From a virus, in IMG/VR virus record IMGVR_UViG_3300000115_000082, positions 1-36,561 of that record: DNA of 36,561 nucleotides. One strand, 5' to 3'. The notes under the pieces were generated by a model. The model was not told the DNA's origin and did no database searches. It saw only the letters and a list, made by a program, of their open reading frames with translations. Shown here piece after piece: positions 1,599-25,355 of this stretch. The position numbers and the translations under genes are program-made. Within the stretch, counting starts at the first letter, position 1. Every line of letters begins with the position of its first letter.

Positions 1599-2315
1599 AT
1601 GGAAAAAAAAGAAGACATTATTAATGAAATATTGAAAAATATTCCTACAGAAACAACTGTAAAGGTAGACCTTCCTTCAGAGTGCAAAGTTTACAATATT
1701 GATGAATCGAGCTATATTACTCTTCGTCCTATGACGTTTGAGGATGAAAAAAGTTTGATTGGTACTCAGGGAGAGGATCCAGTTAACTTATTACTAGAGA
1801 GGTGCCTCGAAGGAGTAAAGGTTATGGACCTTATTCCATTGGACAAGTTATATTTAATAATGAAGCTTAGGGAAATATCTTACGGGGATGACTACGATAC
1901 AGTTCTTATTTGTGATCATTGCAAGACAGAAAACCCAACTAAAGTAAAATTATCTAGTTTAAACGTAAACCCGGTTCCTGATGAGTTCTCAGATCCGATA
2001 ACTATATTTTTGCCGACTATAAAAAAAGAAGCAAAAATTAGGTTACCTAGGGTACGAGATGAAAAAAATATGAGCGATCCAGAGACCCTGGCTAATCAAC
2101 TTTGGAGATTCGTTCAAGAGATTGACGGACACACAGATAAATCTATCATAGCTCCAGTAGTAGATAAACTACCTTTAGTAGATATAAAAACAATCATAAA
2201 AGCGTTTGAGACAGATTACGGGGTTGATACAAAGGTAAAACTTAAGTGCAAAAACTGTGGGGGGGTATCCATTATTGAGCTACCAATAACCTCAAATTTT
2301 TTCGGAGTGAGCTAG
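1599..2315 (+). CDS. gp26-like baseplate hub assembly protein (zero-frame product)
   Basis: A 238-residue protein resembling the T4 gp26 type of hub-assembly factor (T4 gp26 is about 208 residues). The N-terminal half has the MTFEDEKSLIG and LEGVKVMDLIPLDKLYLIMK type of region seen in phage tail chaperones. Two CX2C pairs (C105/C108 and C217/C220) could form a zinc site. Strong ribosome binding site AAGGAG 8 nt upstream. The gene ends at TAG 2313-2315, but the last codons before the stop contain a T_TTT_TTC slippery heptamer (2297-2303), and the -1 frame stays open to 2485. The protein probably acts in the cytoplasm during hub and tape-measure assembly. The assignment rests on recognition of the family pattern, not on a search. 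Confidence 0.65.
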   Translation: MEKKEDIINEILKNIPTETTVKVDLPSECKVYNIDESSYITLRPMTFEDEKSLIGTQGEDPVNLLLERCLEGVKVMDLIPLDKLYLIMKLREISYGDDYDTVLICDHCKTENPTKVKLSSLNVNPVPDEFSDPITIFLPTIKKEAKIRLPRVRDEKNMSDPETLANQLWRFVQEIDGHTDKSIIAPVVDKLPLVDIKTIIKAFETDYGVDTKVKLKCKNCGGVSIIELPITSNFFGVS

Positions 2316-2485
2316 ATCAAGTAATTGATTTAGATTCTCTACTCTTAGAAGCCTATATATTGGTAAAGCGGGCTAGGTTTAGTTATTCGGATGTAAAGAC
2401 TATGACTCGCACAGAAAGAACAGTTTTTCTAAAGCTGCTCAAAGACGACTTCGAGAGGGAAGCAGATGCAATTAAACGGAAATAG
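1599..2485 (+). CDS. Candidate -1 frameshift fusion of the gp26-like protein (295 aa)
   Basis: Predicted long form made by a -1 slip at 2297-2303: residues 1-235 of the gp26-like protein, then 60 residues from the -1 frame (codons from 2303, stop TAG 2483-2485). The extension starts RSELDQVIDLDS and ends in a charged helix with MTRTERTVFLKLLKDD. The -1 frame opens only at 2279, after a TGA, and has no ATG or GTG until the ATG at 2402, which would leave a 27-residue peptide; a TTG lies about 20 codons into the extension. A conserved-looking 60-residue frame without its own start, continuing an upstream gene at a perfect heptamer, is the signature of programmed frameshifting in tail-assembly chaperones such as lambda G/GT. 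The next gene starts at 2466, inside this extension. The fusion is inferred. Confidence 0.6.
2297..2344 (+). promoter_or_regulatory. Putative -1 ribosomal frameshift signal: slippery heptamer plus bulged hairpin
   Basis: In the zero frame, T_TTT_TTC spans 2297-2303 and fits X_XXY_YYZ. Downstream, 2312-2318 pairs with 2327-2333 (7 pairs, one G-U, 8-nt loop), starting 8 nt after the heptamer, a usual spacer length. Outside it, 2305-2311 can pair with 2337-2344 with one bulged base (2340), giving a longer two-part stem. The zero-frame stop lies inside the inner stem. Confidence 0.65.
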
Positions 2486-3416
2486 CGTAGTAGATAGAAA
2501 TAATAGACCAACGGTACTTCAGAAAGTAGGTCTTAGGGCCTTCTTTATTAACGATGGGGTTTATGTAGATCCTTACGAAATCAGCGCAGTCACCGTCTTT
2601 GACAAGTCTGCTAACTTCACACCTAGCACTATATTAGATGACAATTTAATTGCCGCAGATATAGACTCAAGTATCGTTCGTATGAACTTTGCTCCTTCGG
2701 GTGTAGGTGAGGGGAGAACGGGGGAAGATCCTACTAGCTACAACCCTGGATCTGATATAGCATCAACAAGTGCGGTGTATCGTGTCAAAGAGGGGGAATA
2801 TATTGTAGTTCTTGATGGAACTCAAAATACCAGTGGGGTTTATAACCTGAACGGATCCTCTGTAGTGGTCGCCAATACCGCCAGTGGAGTAAAGGATTAC
2901 ATTGATGTTTGGACCGTTAAGCTTGCAGAGGGCTCAACATACCAGTCATTAGTTAACGATTTCCATCTTTACGATGATACGTTCTTTGTGGTTACCGAGC
3001 CACTACTACTAACAGCGAGCAACAAACTAGTTAATAAACATGTTACTTTAGGATCGAAAGAGAATCTTAAGGTAGCCACGGAAATTACCATAAATAATAA
3101 AACTATCGACAGCCTTGTAACCGATCTATTTAGAAACTCAGCCATCATAAATTCTCAGATGAAGATTGAGAAGTTGAACGAAGGGACAGAGACGTTACCC
3201 GCCCATGTAGAAGTTTCTGGGTATTCAGATACTAGTGCCTTGATTGACATTACATCGGACAATACAATGGTACTAAACTTTGACACTACCACCTTAGCCA
3301 CTCATGCTAATGTAGCAGACTTCGGAGGGCTAGTAGGGCAATACAGGCTAACTGTTAAGTACAATCTTCTTAACGAGCTTATAGTTACTCCACCCTTATA
3401 CTTCACAATAAGTTGA
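2466..3416 (+). CDS. Hypothetical protein, probable virion/tail component
   Basis: A 316-residue protein with no family I can name. It is rich in Ser, Thr, Val and Asp with alternating hydrophobic residues, as in beta-rich phage structural proteins, and has no signal peptide or membrane segment. The ATG at 2466 lies 20 bp inside the -1 extension of the gp26-like gene and follows a purine-rich GAGAGGGA at 2453-2460, so translation is probably coupled to the upstream frame. The 3' end overlaps the convergent primase gene by 14 bp (3403-3416). Position between a hub-assembly factor and the tail genes suggests a tail role (inference only). Confidence 0.7.
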   Translation: MQLNGNSVVDRNNRPTVLQKVGLRAFFINDGVYVDPYEISAVTVFDKSANFTPSTILDDNLIAADIDSSIVRMNFAPSGVGEGRTGEDPTSYNPGSDIASTSAVYRVKEGEYIVVLDGTQNTSGVYNLNGSSVVVANTASGVKDYIDVWTVKLAEGSTYQSLVNDFHLYDDTFFVVTEPLLLTASNKLVNKHVTLGSKENLKVATEITINNKTIDSLVTDLFRNSAIINSQMKIEKLNEGTETLPAHVEVSGYSDTSALIDITSDNTMVLNFDTTTLATHANVADFGGLVGQYRLTVKYNLLNELIVTPPLYFTIS

Positions 3417-15778: not shown

Positions 15779-17370
15779 ACTTTTCTGGAACGGTATCTTC
15801 CGACTTTATGAAATTAGCCCCACTGGCGTTAAATCGAAGAGCGGATTTAATAAACTTTGCGGCTACAGATTTTCTTACACTCCGAGATTCTTTGATTGAT
15901 TATGTCAAAGCAGCATTTCCTGAGGACTATAACTATTTTGTGGAGTCCGACTTAGGGATGATGTTCATTGAGTTAGCAGCGTATATGGGAGCAGTGATGT
16001 CCATGAAAGCTGATATGTTAGCCAATGAAAATTACATAGCTACTGCAAGACAGCGAGAAAGCGTTAAAAAATTGTTACAGTTAATTGGTATTAGAATGCG
16101 AGGTCCTCTTTCTTCTGCCGCCGACGTTCAGTTAACTTTTGTTGAAGATTTTACTACTGTAGATGAAATTTTAATCCCACCATCACAGAGGGTTGTAAGC
16201 CTGTTGTCTCCTGAGGATGGCGCTCAGGTGTCCTACACGCTCTATAAGGTTGTTAACGGTCTAGTTGATCAAGCCAATAGAAATGTGTCCATAGCCTTGT
16301 CTCCTACGTCTGAAGGCAAGGGGGACAATAAAAATATTTTTGATAATTTAGTAATTCAAGAAGGCTCTTTAGTTGTTCAGGCAGGGGAGTTTTCTCCCAC
16401 GCAAAACCAAAAATCAATAGCTCTTACGGATGGTCCTGTAGTAGAGGGGAGTATAGAAGTTTTTGTAACTTCACAGCAAGAGGAAACTTTAGGAGCTTAC
16501 TCTGAAGTTGATAGTATTTACTTCGCTTCAGGATCTTCTGATAAAATATTTGAAGTAGTATTTGATCAAGAATATAACGCTACGCTTGTTTTTGGCACTG
16601 GCGTAGCAGGTGTATCTCCTCCGTCTAACGCTTCTTTCACAGTATCTTATAGAGTTGGTGGAGGCACTAGGGGAAACCTAGAAAAAGAGGCTGTTACTGC
16701 GAACATTACGGCAGCTAGTGGGTCGAACACTTACGCAGCATCTTTAATAAACACTTCCAAGGCAACCGGGGGAGCTAATGCTGAAACAATTAGTCGTGCT
16801 AAAAAGTATGCACCCTTAACCTTTAGAAGACAGGATAGGTTAGTTACGTTAACCGATTATTCCTCCTTTGCAAACACATTCATAAGCACTTTCGGCACTG
16901 TGGGTAAAGCAACAGCCGCTACGAGGAATGCTTACTCCTCAGCTAATACCATTGATATTTATATTCTTGAAAAAGCGGGAGACTTCCAATTACAAAGAGC
17001 TACTAGTAACTTTAAAACACAGTTGCTAGTTGAGATGAATAAAAAGAAAATGATGACGGATGATATTGTCATTGTTGACGGTCTCATACGGACTCTGGAT
17101 CTTGTATGTACAGTACAAGTAGACTTAGAGCAAAAGCAAAACGAAGAATCTATAAAGGCCAGAGTTAGGGACAGAATATTAAATTACTTAAGTGTAGATA
17201 ATATGGAATTTGGAGAAGGGCTAAGGGTGTCTGATTTAAACCGTCAAATTTTTGAGGTTGATCAAGTTAGATTCTCTACATTGGATAATGTAAACCAGAA
17301 TCTTAGCGTAGATTTTAATGAGATTATTCAGCTAAATAACCTAACTATCAATGTAGACTACTTAGATTAA
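15775..17370 (+). CDS. 6: Baseplate wedge protein gp6 (baseplate J-like)
   Basis: A 531-residue protein of the gp6/baseplate J type (T4 gp6 is 660). Visible regions are the N-terminal helix with DLGMMFIELAAYMGAVMSMK and NENYIATARQRESVKKLLQL (about 62-100), the YRVGGGTRGNL motif (about 290-300), and the later RLVTLTDYSSFANTF region (about 360). It forms dimers that make the ring around the hub. Gene order gp25-gp6-gp7 is the conserved wedge order. Overlaps with both neighbours indicate co-translation. Confidence 0.85.
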   Translation: MNFSGTVSSDFMKLAPLALNRRADLINFAATDFLTLRDSLIDYVKAAFPEDYNYFVESDLGMMFIELAAYMGAVMSMKADMLANENYIATARQRESVKKLLQLIGIRMRGPLSSAADVQLTFVEDFTTVDEILIPPSQRVVSLLSPEDGAQVSYTLYKVVNGLVDQANRNVSIALSPTSEGKGDNKNIFDNLVIQEGSLVVQAGEFSPTQNQKSIALTDGPVVEGSIEVFVTSQQEETLGAYSEVDSIYFASGSSDKIFEVVFDQEYNATLVFGTGVAGVSPPSNASFTVSYRVGGGTRGNLEKEAVTANITAASGSNTYAASLINTSKATGGANAETISRAKKYAPLTFRRQDRLVTLTDYSSFANTFISTFGTVGKATAATRNAYSSANTIDIYILEKAGDFQLQRATSNFKTQLLVEMNKKKMMTDDIVIVDGLIRTLDLVCTVQVDLEQKQNEESIKARVRDRILNYLSVDNMEFGEGLRVSDLNRQIFEVDQVRFSTLDNVNQNLSVDFNEIIQLNNLTINVDYLD

Positions 17371-20300
17371 TGTTAGAAAATAATCCATACAACCAAGACA
17401 TTAGAAAATATAGCAAATCTAATTTTGTAGATATGCTTGAGCTAATTACCCCCGCGCTGTACGCAGAAGAAGATATTTCGCTTAACGGTCTTGAGGTTAA
17501 TCCTTTAACACAAATAATCAATAGCCACGTTTCTATAGCTGAGAACATATCTACAGTCTTACCTTTGTCTTCAGTAAGCACAGATCTCGGTAGCTTGTCA
17601 GGTATTTGCTCCTTCTTTGTAAAGCAAAATGAATTAACTAAAGTTAGCACCGAAGGCTTTTTTGAGGATATTCTTTATCCACTAAACCAAAGTTACTCAG
17701 AGTTTGATGTAAGCTCAAGCTATGTAAACTATCTATCTTCCAACTTTTTACCGAAGATTATTCCCCCAGGCCCCACAACGCCAGGGACGATTGAAGATAA
17801 TATTTCAGAGCTTTCCGCGCTTACTCAAGATGCTACTGCAAGTAGTATCCATAACTATTTAATAGATAGCTTAGGCTGGTTTTATTTTTTAAACACCTCT
17901 TCTTTAGGTGGTCTAAATTACGATCCATCCTCTTTTGTGCTTGAGAGTCTATCTAAACTTTATACTGGATATGAGTTGAACACTGTAGATGGCATCAAAG
18001 GATTAACTGAGTTTGTTTGGAAGAATTTAGAAACTTGTTCTTTTGGTAACTACATCCCTAAAACGTATTTGTCGGGCACAGAAACTTATACCAGCGGCAC
18101 ACAAAATTTAGATAAATTAAAAACATTGGTAGATGTTTTATATTCTCCTTTACAAGTTGATAAACAAGATTTCAGGGTAGATACTGCTTTTAATAACTTT
18201 ATTGATGCTGGAATAAAGTTAGAGGATACTATATCAAAAGGGCCTCTCAGAAAATTCTTAACAGCTTTAGGTTTCAACTTTGCTGATACCACGAATGAAG
18301 TAGAAAAAATAAAGTATTTATACGATATAGAAAATACTGACCCAGAGAACTTAAAGTACATCGCAGACCTCATAGGATTTAAACTAAGAGGAAACAAGTC
18401 TGAAAAATGGCGTCATCAACTTAGAGTAGCAGTAGACATTTATAAAAAAACCGGGACCCAACAGGCGCTAAGGTCTGCTCTGAACGCTTTGGTAGTTAAC
18501 AGTATTTTATCTATTGAAGGAAATATAATCCCCCTTTGGGAGAGCTACATTCCCCACTTAATTTGGTACTCGTTAGGCACAGCATCACCTTATTTTAGAG
18601 ATCTAACTACCTGGACGCAAAAAACAGCTAAGGATAGTGGCGTGTTTGAGTATAGCACTAGTAGCCTTGAGGAGAATATAAAACTAGTCACAGATACTAT
18701 TCTTCTAGATTTAGCCGGAGCATTCCCAGAAAACTTTAAATCCTTTGGTCAAAAAATGCCCATACCTAGATTCTATTACTTAAATAGAGACGGTACAAAA
18801 GGTAAGCTATACACAGTTCTAGGGTCTCCTGATATGAAGCCTTGGCACGGACACACAATCAAAGCGGGTGGGTTCGAGATTCTCAAAAGAAGAGCATTCC
18901 AAAAAGGTGAAATAGAACTTTGGGAAACAGCCCGTGGACCAGGGCCTTTTGGTGAAGGTGTTTATATGGCTGGACTAAACCATAACACCGATCCAGGCGT
19001 TGATGATGTTTATCTTCTTTTTGAAGGGGATCCTGAATTTCTGTTTAATTACAGGAAAAAAGTAAATTACCCTATTCCTCCTTTCGAAGAAGTAAAATAT
19101 TATCGGGATTCTTCTGTTACACAACCTATGGTAGACCTTTTGGTTGACCGGCTTAAGTGTTTCGGTGTTGACAATACGTTTGCAAATAAGGTAGGGCAGT
19201 ACATTTCAGACAATGCAGTAACTGACTCCACTACTATAGGATCATTAAATGAGTTTTTAATGTTTTTTGATTCTGTTCAACATCCCCCTAATTATGATGA
19301 TGTAATCTTTAGCATTTCAGATTACGAAAAAAACCTACTTAGCTTATGGAATGGGAAGTCTTCTCACATATACATCGACTTTGATTCATCCAGCTTTGAT
19401 TTTAGAAAATCTAATTTAGAAGCTGACTCAAAATATGCGTTGTACGAAACTTCTAGAATAGCTCAAGAGTATACTCCTGCCCACACAATGCCTAGGGTTA
19501 ATCTTAATGCTAGTGCAGAAGACGAATACTTGGCTTCTAGCGTGGAGTTCTTATACGCTGCTTTAGACCATGCGGATACTCGCGCTAATTATAGCTCTGG
19601 TACGGTTTTAGGAAACTCAGTCATTAGCGGAGTAATCTTGGAAGGAGCTAGAACTAGGGAGGGTTTCTTAACTTTCAGTAGGGAGGATGCTAATTCGCAG
19701 CTAAGCTCCGCGTATAACAACTTCGATCCTCCACCTCTTCCTCCCGCCTCAACCAATAGATACATAATTGCTCACGACTTATCTTCTAATACTATTGAAG
19801 ACACTAAACAAATCGTTATAGATAAAAGAGCGACTAGATTACAGAGACCTTACTTGCATGTTGGAAGTGTTCTTCTAAATGGCAAAAACGAGGGAGGTTA
19901 TGTTACTAGAGCTTGGAGGTTAGGTCCTGCGGAAAACGACCCGGAGTATGTGGACCCTTCCTCCAGTATGCCACCTTATCCACCTTACTCTCAATTCTTA
20001 GCAACAATCACGAATGCAAAAGATAGATTTTGGGTTAGCACATCAGGACAACCTTTTCCAACAGAAATAGCTGCTATAGGTATGTCTTCGATTGCAACGG
20101 ACAATTACGGAGGCGTCGGATCAGACTTACTTTTTCAAAATTGTAAGTTACTTCCTTCCCCACTCAACTGGGATAGAGATAGTAGACAATACCATACCCA
20201 AAATGCTTCTGGTTACGGTGGAATGTCTTCTATAGATAAGCTAAGGGATGAATCAATAATTTTCCCCGCAGCAAACGGCAACAATAATCAAGTTCTTTTC

Positions 20301-23300
20301 GGCCAACAAAGATTAAAAGGTAATGAAGCAAAACATTTTAATCTACGGAGGTACACCGGAGAAATGATTGTTGGCTTAGCTAAAGAGGACGAATATGATC
20401 CTTCAGTTTTATTCTCCGGGCCTATTACCGAATCCTCTGGATTTTACTTTGGAGCAAAATTAGATAGTGCTGGTCGTGTTACAGACATTGTTAGAGATGG
20501 GACCGGAGTATCAGGATTTAATTTTACCTTTGGAGATGGATTCAATGTTCCATCTAACGCTATTAGGTATGGTATTTACGAGTCGAACTATCCATATGTA
20601 ATTACTTCTAATGATTTTGGCGTTACTTGGAAACTTTGTGCTATTGGAGATAGATCAGTAGACACGGTAGATGTTCCTGAGGATGAGCCACAACAGCATT
20701 ATAGAATGTTGATAAAAAATCTAGACGCCACTGGAGCAACAATACCTTATAATGAGGATCCACGTTCTTTTCAATATGCAGGTATTACTAAAGGTTCCCA
20801 ATGGACTTCAAACACATTTAAACAGGTTAAGAACGGAGAAATATATTTCCACCATACTCGCCCAGGGGATTACATCTGGAGAAATATAGAAGTTGACGGA
20901 AGGAACCCTAATGAGCGACTGCAACCTTGGGGACCAGTGCAGGATTTCGTTCTCAACGATTCGTTAAAGTGGGGAACTAGAGGCTACTCTCTATCTGCAA
21001 GATCTTTCTATGACTGTGATTGGTCTAACATTAAAAGAGAACACTGTGCATATGTCGCTACAAACGGCCCTGTTCGAGTTGAGGGCTGCACAGCTTCTGC
21101 TATAGGCTCTCAAGGACTTCAGGTATCTTATCGTAGCAGCCCGTATGGAGGCTCGCGACAGGATGAGGGCATATATCAATATCCTACGGGGGACAACTCC
21201 CCGTGGCAGAACTCGGTAACACACACTATTAGAGATTCCCATTATGTTGATTGCGGCTTTGAAGGAGATCGACCAGGGTTTACTTGGACTTTCTTTAGCC
21301 CAGGAAGCTCACGCTACCCTGCAACAATCAAAATTCAAGATTCAACAATCGCAGAAAAATTCCCTAGGCCGATTGCTGCGGGTACTTCGGACCTCGAAGG
21401 AGGATTATCTCTAAAAAGTCTTGTCTTGGCGGGAAGAAACCAAGGGACGCAGTATGATATTTACAACGTACCGGATTCTTCCGCAGCATCACCTCCAACG
21501 GCGGGGTCCCCTGGAGCCTATAAAGATCAGTTTGTAAGAGTCCCTTCTCTGAGCGCAACCTACAGATGGAACGAGGAAACACAAGACTGGGACAACTTCG
21601 GTGACATTACAGGTAATATAACTAAAGAGCTTCGCGTCCAAAACACGGCTATACATACAGTAAAGCAGGGGTCCTCAGGCCACATATCTATTAGGGGCGT
21701 GGATGAAATTTATTTTGAGCACTGTGCATTCATTTACGATCCTGAAGATCCTAACTGGCAAATTCAGGATTACAAAATTGCGATTGATACAGAAAACTTT
21801 GACGCTTCTGGAAGAAGCGAGTTAACTCTTACGCCTTCGGGTGCTTCCGAGCTTAGCGCAATGCAAAGCAGGTACTTAACTCTTAAGAATTGTATCGCTG
21901 TTCTTCCTCCAAATTGCCCGGCTGCTAGAGTTATTTTCAGAGTAAATAGAACAACAAAGAGGGGTGAGCTTGATGGAGCCGGAAACCCGGACCAAGACAA
22001 CTCGCCTGTGTTTACTTATGAACTTAATGCAACAAACAATTTAAATAGAGTAATTAGGTTCGATTTAACTACCTTAGATCCTTCTGGTGGAAGCGCGCAA
22101 ACGCCAGCAATCCTTGAAGATCGCGCATATGATGTTCTCCTTGACGGCGATTACCCTACGGCAGCTAGTGGAAGTGGTGGTGAAACTATTGCTCCCCCAA
22201 TAACTGACCCTCCAGGAACAATACAAGGTGCCTACCCTTCTGACGAGGCGACGGATATTTCTATAAATGTAAACTGCGCTTGGGCTCCTACCTTAAATGC
22301 ATCAGGTTATGACGTTGCCTTCGGGGAGGGTTCCTTACCCGAAGAGTTCGCAGTTGAAAATATAACTACTCCCTTCTTTGACCCAGCGGTAGCGATCCCA
22401 GGGGGCCTTAGTTATGACACTGTTTACTATTGGAAAGTTGATACTAAGAATTCAGTAGGATCGACTGTGGGAGATACGTTAACATTTACAACGGAAAGCG
22501 CACCTCCTCCTGCACCAGGGCAGGCTACTAATTTGTTACCAACTAACGGAGCTACAGGGGTTTCTCTTACTCAATCATGCTCTTGGGATGCTGCAACAAA
22601 CGCTAGTTCTTATGATGTTTACTTTGGGTCAGTAGCGTCCCCTACTATTCAATCTTCGGAGCAAGCGGACACCTCGTTTTCTCCTGATCCATTATCGTAT
22701 AGCGAAACTTACTACTGGAGAATTGACCCTAGGGGTTCGGGTGGAGTAACTACTGGGTCAGTAATTAGCTTCACTACAGAGGACGATCCTGGAACTATTG
22801 TAGACCCCCCCGATGAGGTTACTGAAGGTTCCCCAAACAATTTTGAAGTATCTTCTACTAACCCAGTTATATTAAATTGGACAGCACCGGGAAATGACCC
22901 CTCAGGGTTTGATGTTTTTTTTGGAACAACCCCTGGAGCATTAGTTCAAATAGAGACTGACGTAACAAACACAACAACAGAAACTTCTTCCTTAAGCGCA
23001 GGAACACTTTATTACTGGGATGTTACTGCGAAGAATTCTGCTGGTAGCACACCTATGGCGAGTGAGTTTTCTTTTTCCACTATTCCTGCGCCGTCGTCAG
23101 TAACCGAGGGTCAGCCGAATAATATGACGGTTGTTCCAACGAACCCTATACTATCTTGGATAGGTGTATCGGGGGCTACTAACTATGATGTTTACTTAGG
23201 CCAAAGCTTGGGTACACTTTTTGAATCTCCAGTGGCTACTAATGTTGAAAGCTTATCCTACCGCCCAGGAACACTACAAGCGAACTCACAATATTATTGG

Positions 23301-25355
23301 AGTATTGTTTCAAAAAATACATTTGGTGAAACGGGAATGGAAGGCGGCACATCCCAGGGAAATGAAGAAGGAGGGGAACCAACAGAAGATCCAGGCGAAG
23401 GATACTTCAGTTTCCTTACTTCGGAACTACCTCCTTCCGAGATACTTAGGAATGATCTTAGGCGAAGAAACTTTAGATATCTTCTTCCTGAGTTTGGATA
23501 TTACGACAGGACAGGGTTTAATGGTCCGGTAACTTACGACCCTTCAGTGTTAGAAATGTCTCTACTCAGTTCCTTAGGAGAGTTAACTTTAGGTTATGCT
23601 GCTTCTTCGGGAAAATTTTTCCCAATAGAAGACCACACTAACATATCTGGAGTATGGGATATTTGTGAAAACTTAACTTCCCCTAATTCTTTCTCTGGAG
23701 TGGATACTAGTAATACGTTCCCTTATCGAGGAGTGGACTCAACTATTTTTTCTATGGAACGATATGTTGATCGAGGGCAAACGCCCGAAATTATCACAAC
23801 CATGCATTCTCTGATGGAGAATAAGGCCAGGGCGTTCGCCCAGAGTAACATAGATGCTTCGCCTTCCTCTTTCCAAATTGATTCTTACTGGAAAGATCAA
23901 GTTCAAAGCTACGCTAATTCATCAATTGCTAGTGGCTATGTCATAAATTCGTACTCGGATTATGAAAACTTCAGTTTCGGTAGAGATATGCAGAAAGTAT
24001 TTAAAAATTACTCTGTAGATTTTTATAGGCATAGCTTAGGGCCGAACATGAGGGAAAAAACGGGGGCTAATATTTTCTCTCATATTTTTGGTAAAGGGTT
24101 ATTTAACTGCGACTTTGAAGTTCCTGGGGAGAACGCGGAGTCCTTTATTTCTACTAACCTTCGATCCTACCAACCAATTAATAACACTAGTATTTGGCTT
24201 CAAGATGCGCCAGGAACAACGATAGCCAGCGGTATTGATGATACAGTTGTTCCTCTTATTGGGACTTATACCTCAGGACAGTCTTTTGATTTTAGAAACG
24301 CAACTATTTTAAGTGGAGTAGAGTTTTGCGACATATCTGGAGCGCCTAGCAGAAATCAATTCCAAGTTATTAATTTAGACGCATCTACTCAAGTTAAGGG
24401 TTTAGAAAATTACTTTACAGGTAATCCAATAATTAAATGTAAATCTGTTGGCGGATTGCCCAGGATTCGTTTTGATGTTTCTTCCTACGGAGATAATCCT
24501 AATAAGCTACTTCCAGAACATAAGTTTAAGATAAACTTAAAAGCTTTAGTTGCTGACGAAAGTAATCCTGAGTTTGGTGGAGGTCAGGTAGGGATATGGA
24601 TCCACACTGAACCTGAGGAAGGGTTGATGTGGTCTTGGACCGCTGAGAGGAAATGGACTCCAACAAGAATTCAAGATTTGAGCATTGATCAAGTTACAAA
24701 AAAGTTATCAAATATCTTTAACCTACAATTAAAAGAACCAGATACAGATAGAAAGTATTGTTTAGCTTCTATAAATTCTCCTGGATTTATTAAAAACGAA
24801 ACTTTAAGTAATTTAAGGTCAGAGTTTTTTGAAGACCTGTCTGTAGAGTTTGATACTAGAAACTTCTCCATATACAATAACTTAGAGTATAAGAAAATAA
24901 TTAACAAAAATGATGAGCAATATAAACTAACTGATCAGGTACATAAAGATAGAAATTATATTGTTGAAGTGTTCTTTGTTCCAAATAATAATTATTCAAA
25001 GTACCTTTTAATAGATTCTATTGGCCTACATGACAATACTTTACGCTATCAAGCTGCTTTACCCACAGGTTTGGGTGTGCCTACAAAGGGCATCCCTCTT
25101 CGTCCTTTTGTAAAAGAATTTAGATACGAGTTAAATAAAGATGAATTAGCTAAAACTCTAAAGTTCTATAATGGAATGATAGGACAACGTGCAGGGGAAA
25201 ACACTACTCCTCTGGCCTCAAGGGATGCAAATATCACACAGGATATTATGGGTCCGTATGGGGGCAGTAGGATTAACTACCGACTGAGCCCTGAATGGAT
25301 TAATCATACTGATGGCCTGAACGGAAATTATACAGAAGTGGAGTTCGATAACTGA
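17370..25355 (+). CDS. 7: Giant gp7-like baseplate wedge protein with beta-helix and FnIII-like insertions
   Basis: A 2661-residue protein, over twice T4 gp7 (1032). Residues about 316-375 match the tail protein I/gp7 core (DPENLKYIADLIGFKLRG, then KKTGTQQALRSALNAL). Residues about 1130-1500 have the repeated short strands and Asn/Asp turns of a right-handed beta-helix (for example PVRVEGCTASAIGSQGLQVS). About 1611-2020 hold four tandem fibronectin III-like units, each with a YDVYFG-type strand and a YYWKVDTKNSVG-type strand. Residues 2020-2661 resume a baseplate-like domain ending LSPEWINHTDGLNGNYTEVE. It probably forms the outer wedge arm, with the inserts exposed at the rim as glycan-contact or spacer domains (inference). 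No frameshift is seen along the length. TAATG overlap with gp6. Confidence 0.75.
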   Translation: MLENNPYNQDIRKYSKSNFVDMLELITPALYAEEDISLNGLEVNPLTQIINSHVSIAENISTVLPLSSVSTDLGSLSGICSFFVKQNELTKVSTEGFFEDILYPLNQSYSEFDVSSSYVNYLSSNFLPKIIPPGPTTPGTIEDNISELSALTQDATASSIHNYLIDSLGWFYFLNTSSLGGLNYDPSSFVLESLSKLYTGYELNTVDGIKGLTEFVWKNLETCSFGNYIPKTYLSGTETYTSGTQNLDKLKTLVDVLYSPLQVDKQDFRVDTAFNNFIDAGIKLEDTISKGPLRKFLTALGFNFADTTNEVEKIKYLYDIENTDPENLKYIADLIGFKLRGNKSEKWRHQLRVAVDIYKKTGTQQALRSALNALVVNSILSIEGNIIPLWESYIPHLIWYSLGTASPYFRDLTTWTQKTAKDSGVFEYSTSSLEENIKLVTDTILLDLAGAFPENFKSFGQKMPIPRFYYLNRDGTKGKLYTVLGSPDMKPWHGHTIKAGGFEILKRRAFQKGEIELWETARGPGPFGEGVYMAGLNHNTDPGVDDVYLLFEGDPEFLFNYRKKVNYPIPPFEEVKYYRDSSVTQPMVDLLVDRLKCFGVDNTFANKVGQYISDNAVTDSTTIGSLNEFLMFFDSVQHPPNYDDVIFSISDYEKNLLSLWNGKSSHIYIDFDSSSFDFRKSNLEADSKYALYETSRIAQEYTPAHTMPRVNLNASAEDEYLASSVEFLYAALDHADTRANYSSGTVLGNSVISGVILEGARTREGFLTFSREDANSQLSSAYNNFDPPPLPPASTNRYIIAHDLSSNTIEDTKQIVIDKRATRLQRPYLHVGSVLLNGKNEGGYVTRAWRLGPAENDPEYVDPSSSMPPYPPYSQFLATITNAKDRFWVSTSGQPFPTEIAAIGMSSIATDNYGGVGSDLLFQNCKLLPSPLNWDRDSRQYHTQNASGYGGMSSIDKLRDESIIFPAANGNNNQVLFGQQRLKGNEAKHFNLRRYTGEMIVGLAKEDEYDPSVLFSGPITESSGFYFGAKLDSAGRVTDIVRDGTGVSGFNFTFGDGFNVPSNAIRYGIYESNYPYVITSNDFGVTWKLCAIGDRSVDTVDVPEDEPQQHYRMLIKNLDATGATIPYNEDPRSFQYAGITKGSQWTSNTFKQVKNGEIYFHHTRPGDYIWRNIEVDGRNPNERLQPWGPVQDFVLNDSLKWGTRGYSLSARSFYDCDWSNIKREHCAYVATNGPVRVEGCTASAIGSQGLQVSYRSSPYGGSRQDEGIYQYPTGDNSPWQNSVTHTIRDSHYVDCGFEGDRPGFTWTFFSPGSSRYPATIKIQDSTIAEKFPRPIAAGTSDLEGGLSLKSLVLAGRNQGTQYDIYNVPDSSAASPPTAGSPGAYKDQFVRVPSLSATYRWNEETQDWDNFGDITGNITKELRVQNTAIHTVKQGSSGHISIRGVDEIYFEHCAFIYDPEDPNWQIQDYKIAIDTENFDASGRSELTLTPSGASELSAMQSRYLTLKNCIAVLPPNCPAARVIFRVNRTTKRGELDGAGNPDQDNSPVFTYELNATNNLNRVIRFDLTTLDPSGGSAQTPAILEDRAYDVLLDGDYPTAASGSGGETIAPPITDPPGTIQGAYPSDEATDISINVNCAWAPTLNASGYDVAFGEGSLPEEFAVENITTPFFDPAVAIPGGLSYDTVYYWKVDTKNSVGSTVGDTLTFTTESAPPPAPGQATNLLPTNGATGVSLTQSCSWDAATNASSYDVYFGSVASPTIQSSEQADTSFSPDPLSYSETYYWRIDPRGSGGVTTGSVISFTTEDDPGTIVDPPDEVTEGSPNNFEVSSTNPVILNWTAPGNDPSGFDVFFGTTPGALVQIETDVTNTTTETSSLSAGTLYYWDVTAKNSAGSTPMASEFSFSTIPAPSSVTEGQPNNMTVVPTNPILSWIGVSGATNYDVYLGQSLGTLFESPVATNVESLSYRPGTLQANSQYYWSIVSKNTFGETGMEGGTSQGNEEGGEPTEDPGEGYFSFLTSELPPSEILRNDLRRRNFRYLLPEFGYYDRTGFNGPVTYDPSVLEMSLLSSLGELTLGYAASSGKFFPIEDHTNISGVWDICENLTSPNSFSGVDTSNTFPYRGVDSTIFSMERYVDRGQTPEIITTMHSLMENKARAFAQSNIDASPSSFQIDSYWKDQVQSYANSSIASGYVINSYSDYENFSFGRDMQKVFKNYSVDFYRHSLGPNMREKTGANIFSHIFGKGLFNCDFEVPGENAESFISTNLRSYQPINNTSIWLQDAPGTTIASGIDDTVVPLIGTYTSGQSFDFRNATILSGVEFCDISGAPSRNQFQVINLDASTQVKGLENYFTGNPIIKCKSVGGLPRIRFDVSSYGDNPNKLLPEHKFKINLKALVADESNPEFGGGQVGIWIHTEPEEGLMWSWTAERKWTPTRIQDLSIDQVTKKLSNIFNLQLKEPDTDRKYCLASINSPGFIKNETLSNLRSEFFEDLSVEFDTRNFSIYNNLEYKKIINKNDEQYKLTDQVHKDRNYIVEVFFVPNNNYSKYLLIDSIGLHDNTLRYQAALPTGLGVPTKGIPLRPFVKEFRYELNKDELAKTLKFYNGMIGQRAGENTTPLASRDANITQDIMGPYGGSRINYRLSPEWINHTDGLNGNYTEVEFDN
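22200..23430 (+). repeat. Four tandem fibronectin III-like coding repeats
   Basis: Inside the gp7-like gene, four units of about 90 codons begin near 22230, 22530, 22825 and 23105. Each has a YDV(A/Y/F)(F/L)G-type strand and a (Y)YYW(K/R/D/S) strand followed by KNS-type turns. The DNA is diverged, so the duplication is old or the units were acquired separately. Confidence 0.7.

Follow-up and report, generated by a model that had tools for sequence, protein, structure and literature searches.

Organization of the gp26-type locus

The DNA analysed here (hereafter the window) is a stretch of 36,561 nucleotides, positions 1–36,561 of IMGVR_UViG_3300000115_000082, a virus record in IMG/VR. It contains a T4-like tail module with baseplate genes of gp53-, gp25- and gp6-type, and a UvsW-type helicase gene. 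A 2661-codon ORF at 17370–25355, flanked by the gp6-type gene and more tail genes, gave weak matches to Tail_P2_I and fibronectin type III.

A gene of gp26-type (Table 1) lies between genes for the UvsW-like helicase and for a 316-aa protein that belongs to no family. The sequence AAGGAG is found upstream of it at 1585–1590, and its 238 codons end with AAT TTT TTC GGA GTG AGC TAG. The product matches the PF12322 T4_baseplate profile (E 2.2e-20, 73.7 bits, curated cut-off 24.5) and the phrog_150 baseplate hub family (E 1.6e-24). An AF2 model of the product (pLDDT 87.7) has the SP-15 baseplate hub as its top Foldseek match (E 1e-18). Relatives of solved structure were found by sequence neither for the gp26-type part nor for the extension described below.

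Table 1. Features of the gp26-type gene and its surroundings (window coordinates)
Feature	Position	Strand	Basis or remark
gp26-type gene, 238-aa zero-frame product (putative TAC-N)	1599..2315	+	Pfam PF12322, phrog_150
Slippery heptamer T_TTT_TTC	2297..2303	+	sequence; 64/64 clade; 79/79 cyanophage-type loci
Zero-frame TAG stop, three codons past heptamer	2313..2315	+	sequence
−1 extension, 60 residues, gp51-like C-terminal domain of the predicted fusion (TAC-NC)	2303..2485	+	conservation, Ka/Ks, gp51 homology
Window-specific hairpin, possible stimulator, this form not conserved	2304..2345	+	−15.4 kcal/mol fold
GAAGCCTATATA, frozen synonymous sites within extension	2348..2359	+	codon counts vs usage
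Next gene, 316 aa, no family	2466..3416	+	overlaps extension end by 20 nt

The −1 frame is open in the window from 2279 to a TAG at 2483–2485. Its first ATG is located at 2402; a TTG is present at 2360 and there is no GTG. A shift at the heptamer would produce a fusion of 235 + 60 = 295 residues. A sequence-only reading of this DNA had proposed programmed −1 frameshifting here, pointing to the zero-frame T_TTT_TTC, to a −1 frame free of ATG and GTG before 2402 and to a 295-residue fusion with a 60-residue extension. All of these were borne out; the TTG at 2360 had gone unmentioned.

The heptamer and the −1 frame are conserved in relatives

A scan of IMG/VR yielded 63 related loci with gp26 identity of 39–88%, so that the clade together with the window comprises 64 sequences, 46 of which were retained after dereplication. 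T_TTT_TT[C/T] is present in the same phase in 63/63 relatives, 3–8 codons ahead of the gp26 stop, and the −1 frame continues past that stop for 52–62 codons in every one of them. TTTTTT in the heptamer phase within the last 12 codons was found in 64/64 gp26 genes vs 0/325 of the remaining ORFs with a length of 100 aa or more from these 64 sequences. Since it was found in every relative checked, we consider the heptamer signal real. The conservation across homologues that the sequence-only reading had proposed as a check, of the heptamer, the missing start and the −1 frame, is thus present. Loss of the heptamer with the frame kept, which that reading had named as evidence against itself, does not occur among the 64 sequences.

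The codons of the heptamer were examined in the 46 dereplicated members. The codon ahead of the two Phe codons is AAT, GAT, AGT or GGT and ends in T in 46/46, while the first Phe codon is TTT in 46/46. From codon usage the chance of a constant T ending is about 3e-9 with sequences treated as independent, a value that, like the other codon-usage probabilities given here, ignores shared ancestry and is only indicative.

Frame breaks beside homopolymer runs are frequent errors of assembly, and the two frames could formerly have been one gene, now split by such an error or decayed to a pseudogene. The identical break recurs in isolate genomes and in 79 cyanophage-type loci, as well as in 63 further contigs that come from many metagenomes. 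Sequencing error is therefore refuted, and we regard the probability of this explanation as negligible.

The −1 frame lacks a consistent start and is selected as a protein

The downstream frame could alternatively be an ordinary separate gene, gp51, whose translation is coupled to that of gp26 and starts within gp26 or immediately behind it, with the T run being incidental. Cyanophage gp51 is indeed annotated as a gene of its own, whose ATG, close to the stop of gp26, is kept in 73/79 loci, and the window itself offers the TTG at 2360 and the ATG at 2402. However, the window's clade shows no consistent start ahead of the conserved domain, and in several members a usable start is missing altogether. 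The extension of L060 contains no ATG, GTG or TTG anywhere, which already disfavours a separate gene, and those of L046, L062 and L064 lack ATG. In most other members the first ATG is situated 35 codons past the slip codon and within the conserved domain; initiation there would remove the conserved LLLEAYILV region, so an independent start would cut the domain. A stop codon of the −1 frame sits immediately 5′ of the heptamer in seven relatives (L049, L053–L056, L059 and L061), and entry from gp26 is therefore open only at the heptamer. Further, the third positions of the heptamer are frozen though codon usage would permit variation, and in T4-type phages the fusion exists as a single gene. A separately started gp51 is thus very unlikely in our estimate. 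A downstream frame with its own start and ribosome binding site, also listed in the sequence-only reading as contrary evidence, was not seen in the clade.

The median Ka/Ks is 0.18 for the extension vs 0.12 for gp26, values indicating that the extension evolves as a protein, under protein-level selection. As in lambda G/GT, then, the −1 ORF is conserved as a protein (Ka/Ks 0.18) and, according to the survey of start codons, lacks a start of its own.

The extension is related to gp51

The extension of the window, used alone as a single sequence, matched phrog_634, the baseplate hub assembly catalyst family (gp51), with E 0.008. Profile–profile comparison with hhalign, which the sequence-only reading had suggested, gave a match to cyanophage gp51 with E 3e-7 and prob 93 over 56 columns. 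AF2 predicts a helical domain (pLDDT 88). P-HM1 Gp51 was among the viral Foldseek matches of this model, with prob 0.99 and E 0.085; another was a protein annotated as a tail assembly chaperone, with prob 0.87 and E 0.49. No viral match fell below E 0.001, and no solved structure was matched by fold. A 293-residue phage protein, A0A6J7X6V4, matches both the extension model and the gp26 model in Foldseek and, on these models, looks like a natural in-frame fusion. Judged by sequence comparison, the extension is a homologue of gp51.

In T4 itself, gp51 consists of a T4_baseplate domain (residues 1–201, E 4e-52) followed by a C-terminus that belongs to phrog_634; the extension profile matched the tail of T4 gp51, taken as a single sequence, weakly (E 0.032, prob 1.6). 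Since T4 gp51 is composed of a gp26-like domain and a gp51 tail, T4 carries the short and the long forms as two genes. By their domain content, the short form corresponds to T4 gp26 and the long form to T4 gp51, the two being encoded by paralogous genes. T4 gp26 and the short form of the window are homologous, and the tail of T4 gp51 is of the same kind as the extension; the difference is that in T4 the two forms come from separate genes on opposite strands, whereas the window has a single gene with a frameshift. Klebsiella phage KP15 has the two-gene arrangement of T4. Both gene 51 of T4 (L072, 4480–5229) and that of KP15 (L164, 1501–2244) encode a gp26-like domain with a gp51 tail.

Slip sites in cyanophages and other phages

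The gp26–gp51 region of cyanophages (Kyanoviridae) has the same heptamer, phase and −1 frame as the window and a homologous extension. T_TTT_TTC was present in 79/79 readable cyanophage-type loci (33 after dereplication), at a fixed position three codons before the stop, counted from the first Phe codon. In contrast to the window's clade, where none is found, the cyanophage extension usually has an ATG just past the gp26 stop, five codons past the slip codon (73/79 loci). With this ATG kept, a free gp51 is possible in these phages. In one cyanophage-type locus (L150, 3211–3399) the usual ATG of gp51 is replaced by CTG with the heptamer and the frame intact, which argues for frameshifting in cyanophages too.

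The codon composition of the site bears on whether the fusion might arise when RNA polymerase slips along the T run, and not on the ribosome. Polymerases are able to slip on sequences such as runs of 6–8 T; most members, however, have six T, and the T_TTT_TTN phase is exact in every case. Moreover, the site of cyanophage-type loci invariably has TTC as its last Phe codon, even though 76% of their Phe codons are TTT. This favours slippage of tandem tRNAs over slippage of the polymerase. With TTT at about 75% of Phe codons and independence assumed, the binomial tail for TTC at the last Phe is 4e-14 in the window's clade (35/46) and 6e-21 in cyanophage clusters (33/33). The preference for TTC keeps the T run short, whereas polymerase slippage would favour longer runs. 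We thus judge slippage by the polymerase to be most improbable.

T_TTT_TT[C/T] was also identified in Melnitz-3, Ochrobactrum phage OC, DLP6, Ps15, Aeromonas phage 65 and Rhizobium phage IC12, and no start was found ahead of the conserved part of the extension in Melnitz-3, OC and Aeromonas phage 65. The corresponding site reads T_TTT_TTG in N34 and T_TTT_TTA in XG4; in Vibrio phage K448 the heptamer is absent. Three gp51 or hypothetical genes in GenBank (L155, 2250–2393; L157, 2256–2396; L160, 2292–2372) seem to have been cut short in the annotators' search for an internal start; the conserved frame starts at the slip site of gp26.

In SP-15, LIS04, L154 and Streptococcus phage GXN1, an extension in the +1 frame was likened to gp51 by eye and by position, with no family match found. 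The gp26-type gene of SP-15 and LIS04 occupies the same place as lambda G/GT, with tail tube and tape-measure-type genes on either side. The SP-15-type extension is a possible +1 frameshift counterpart. Extensions in the +1 frame after gp26 were recorded in L066 (4114–4437), L067 (4135–4443), L068 (4138–4506) and L154 (downstream of 3230), and the motif CC[CA]GATT[CT] is common to SP-15-type phages of Bacillus, Listeria and Streptococcus, just before the stop.

RNA downstream of the heptamer

The sequence-only reading had also pointed to a hairpin just after the heptamer. Such a hairpin is present in the window: 2304–2320 pairs within 2325–2345, with −15.4 kcal/mol and a z of −3.2 for the 45-nt stretch. 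It starts 0–1 nt past the heptamer; the spacing between slippery heptamers and their stimulators is usually 5–9 nt. The hairpin did not hold up as a conserved element. RNAalifold with 30 relatives predicted 0 pairs at this region, and for the hairpin of the window 68% of cells were paired, with no covariation. As a conserved stimulator it was rejected. An alternative stem, CTAGAAGAAG/CTTCTTCTAG, situated 8 nt past the heptamer, which is an ideal spacing, had 84% of cells paired and covariation not above that of shuffles. Compared with a synonymous-codon null, fold stability reached p<0.05 in 8/46 sequences, a mild enrichment only. A stimulator of the frameshift is likely.

Across 46 relatives with gp26 identity down to 39%, synonymous positions stay frozen over some 60 nt and relax abruptly after GAAGCCTATATA. 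The codons of this element are GAA in 39/39, GCC in 41/44, TAT in 44/46 and ATA in 43/43 cases vs usage of 62, 21, 67 and 29%, respectively. The possibility that GAAGCCTATATA is a late promoter was considered and rejected: CCTATATA occurs only 1–4 times per 57–77 kb contig and is therefore not a general promoter. The freezing, unexplained by coding or by a general promoter, is possibly part of the frameshift signal.

A probable frameshifted tail assembly chaperone in T4-like phages

The heptamer is universal in the clade, the −1 frame is under selection, starts are missing or would truncate the domain, and the extension is homologous to gp51. For these reasons the proposal that the gp26 −1 fusion is the T4-side equivalent of lambda G/GT is strongly supported. 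On the sequence evidence, the gene very probably encodes the tail assembly chaperone (TAC) of a T4-like contractile tail, made as TAC-N and, via −1 frameshifting, as TAC-NC. Points that weigh against this reading are that no conserved RNA stimulator emerged, that most cyanophage gp51 frames have an ATG, that the extension of SP-15-type phages is in the +1 frame, that Vibrio phage K448 has no heptamer, and that the match to the tail of T4 gp51 is weak. Most ribosomes would stop after 238 codons and yield an abundant short form, gp26 or TAC-N. A minority would slip back one base, with two tRNA-Phe slipping in tandem on U_UUU_UUC, bypass the TAG and add 60 residues to give the 295-residue gp26–gp51 fusion, TAC-NC, as a minor long form. 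By analogy with lambda gpG and gpGT, the short form may coat the tape-measure protein and the long form may recruit tube subunits via the added helical domain. We infer the slippage itself and its low rate, the stimulator and the binding partners of both forms.

The frameshift of the lambda gpG/gpGT tail assembly chaperone was reportedly described by Xu, Hendrix and Duda, and PMC5009743 reviews it. The likeness to lambda consists in a short form with a rare −1 long form, a slippery heptamer placed shortly before the short ORF ends and a tail-module gene. The differences are that T_TTT_TTC is used in the window and another heptamer in lambda, that the gp26 family has zinc-ribbon-like cysteine pairs, and that the downstream neighbour is the tape-measure gene in lambda but is not recognised as a tape measure in the window.

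The G–T frameshift was earlier described as conserved and widespread in long-tailed phages "except T4" (PMC5009743). Vladimirov, Gautam and Davidson (2022; Virology 566:9), as cited in PMC10885494 and PMC12846349, identified TAC genes of T4-like phages, and the title of that paper argues for another mechanism. According to the PRFect paper (PMC10885494, after Vladimirov et al. 2022), some T4-like phages have a short gene and a fusion gene in place of the frameshift, and PMC12846349, citing the same work, gives polyT slippery sequences as known in TAC-N genes of T4-like phages. The remark of the sequence-only reading that no case was described in the gp26 family must accordingly be withdrawn as far as these second-hand accounts go. 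The TAC of Vandenendeviridae/Andersonviridae (phage Adele, PMC12846349) likewise has a polyT slip site near the end of TAC-N and a −1 extension of more than 200 bp, but this is a myovirus lineage different from that of the window. A frameshifted TAC is thus already known in other long-tailed phages and, at second hand, in some T4-like ones. What may be new is the frozen stretch of RNA, the +1 variant of SP-15-type phages and the clade in which gp51 lacks any start.

For records of Melnitz-3, phage OC and Aeromonas phage 65, in which gp51 was missed, truncated or called a free gene, the annotation is hereby corrected. A tentative scenario, which we do not hold with confidence, is that frameshifting was ancestral for gp26/gp51 across the T4 superfamily. 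It would have been kept as −1 in cyanophages, the Aeromonas phage 65 lineage and the window's clade, would have become a +1 shift in SP-15-like phages of Firmicutes, and in T4 itself would have given way to a duplicated short gene and a fused gene; the signal of the window's clade would include a new RNA element ending some 60 nt downstream at GAAGCCTATATA. As conservation indicates, many T4 relatives use a frameshift, and the two-gene arrangement of T4 is probably a derived exception.
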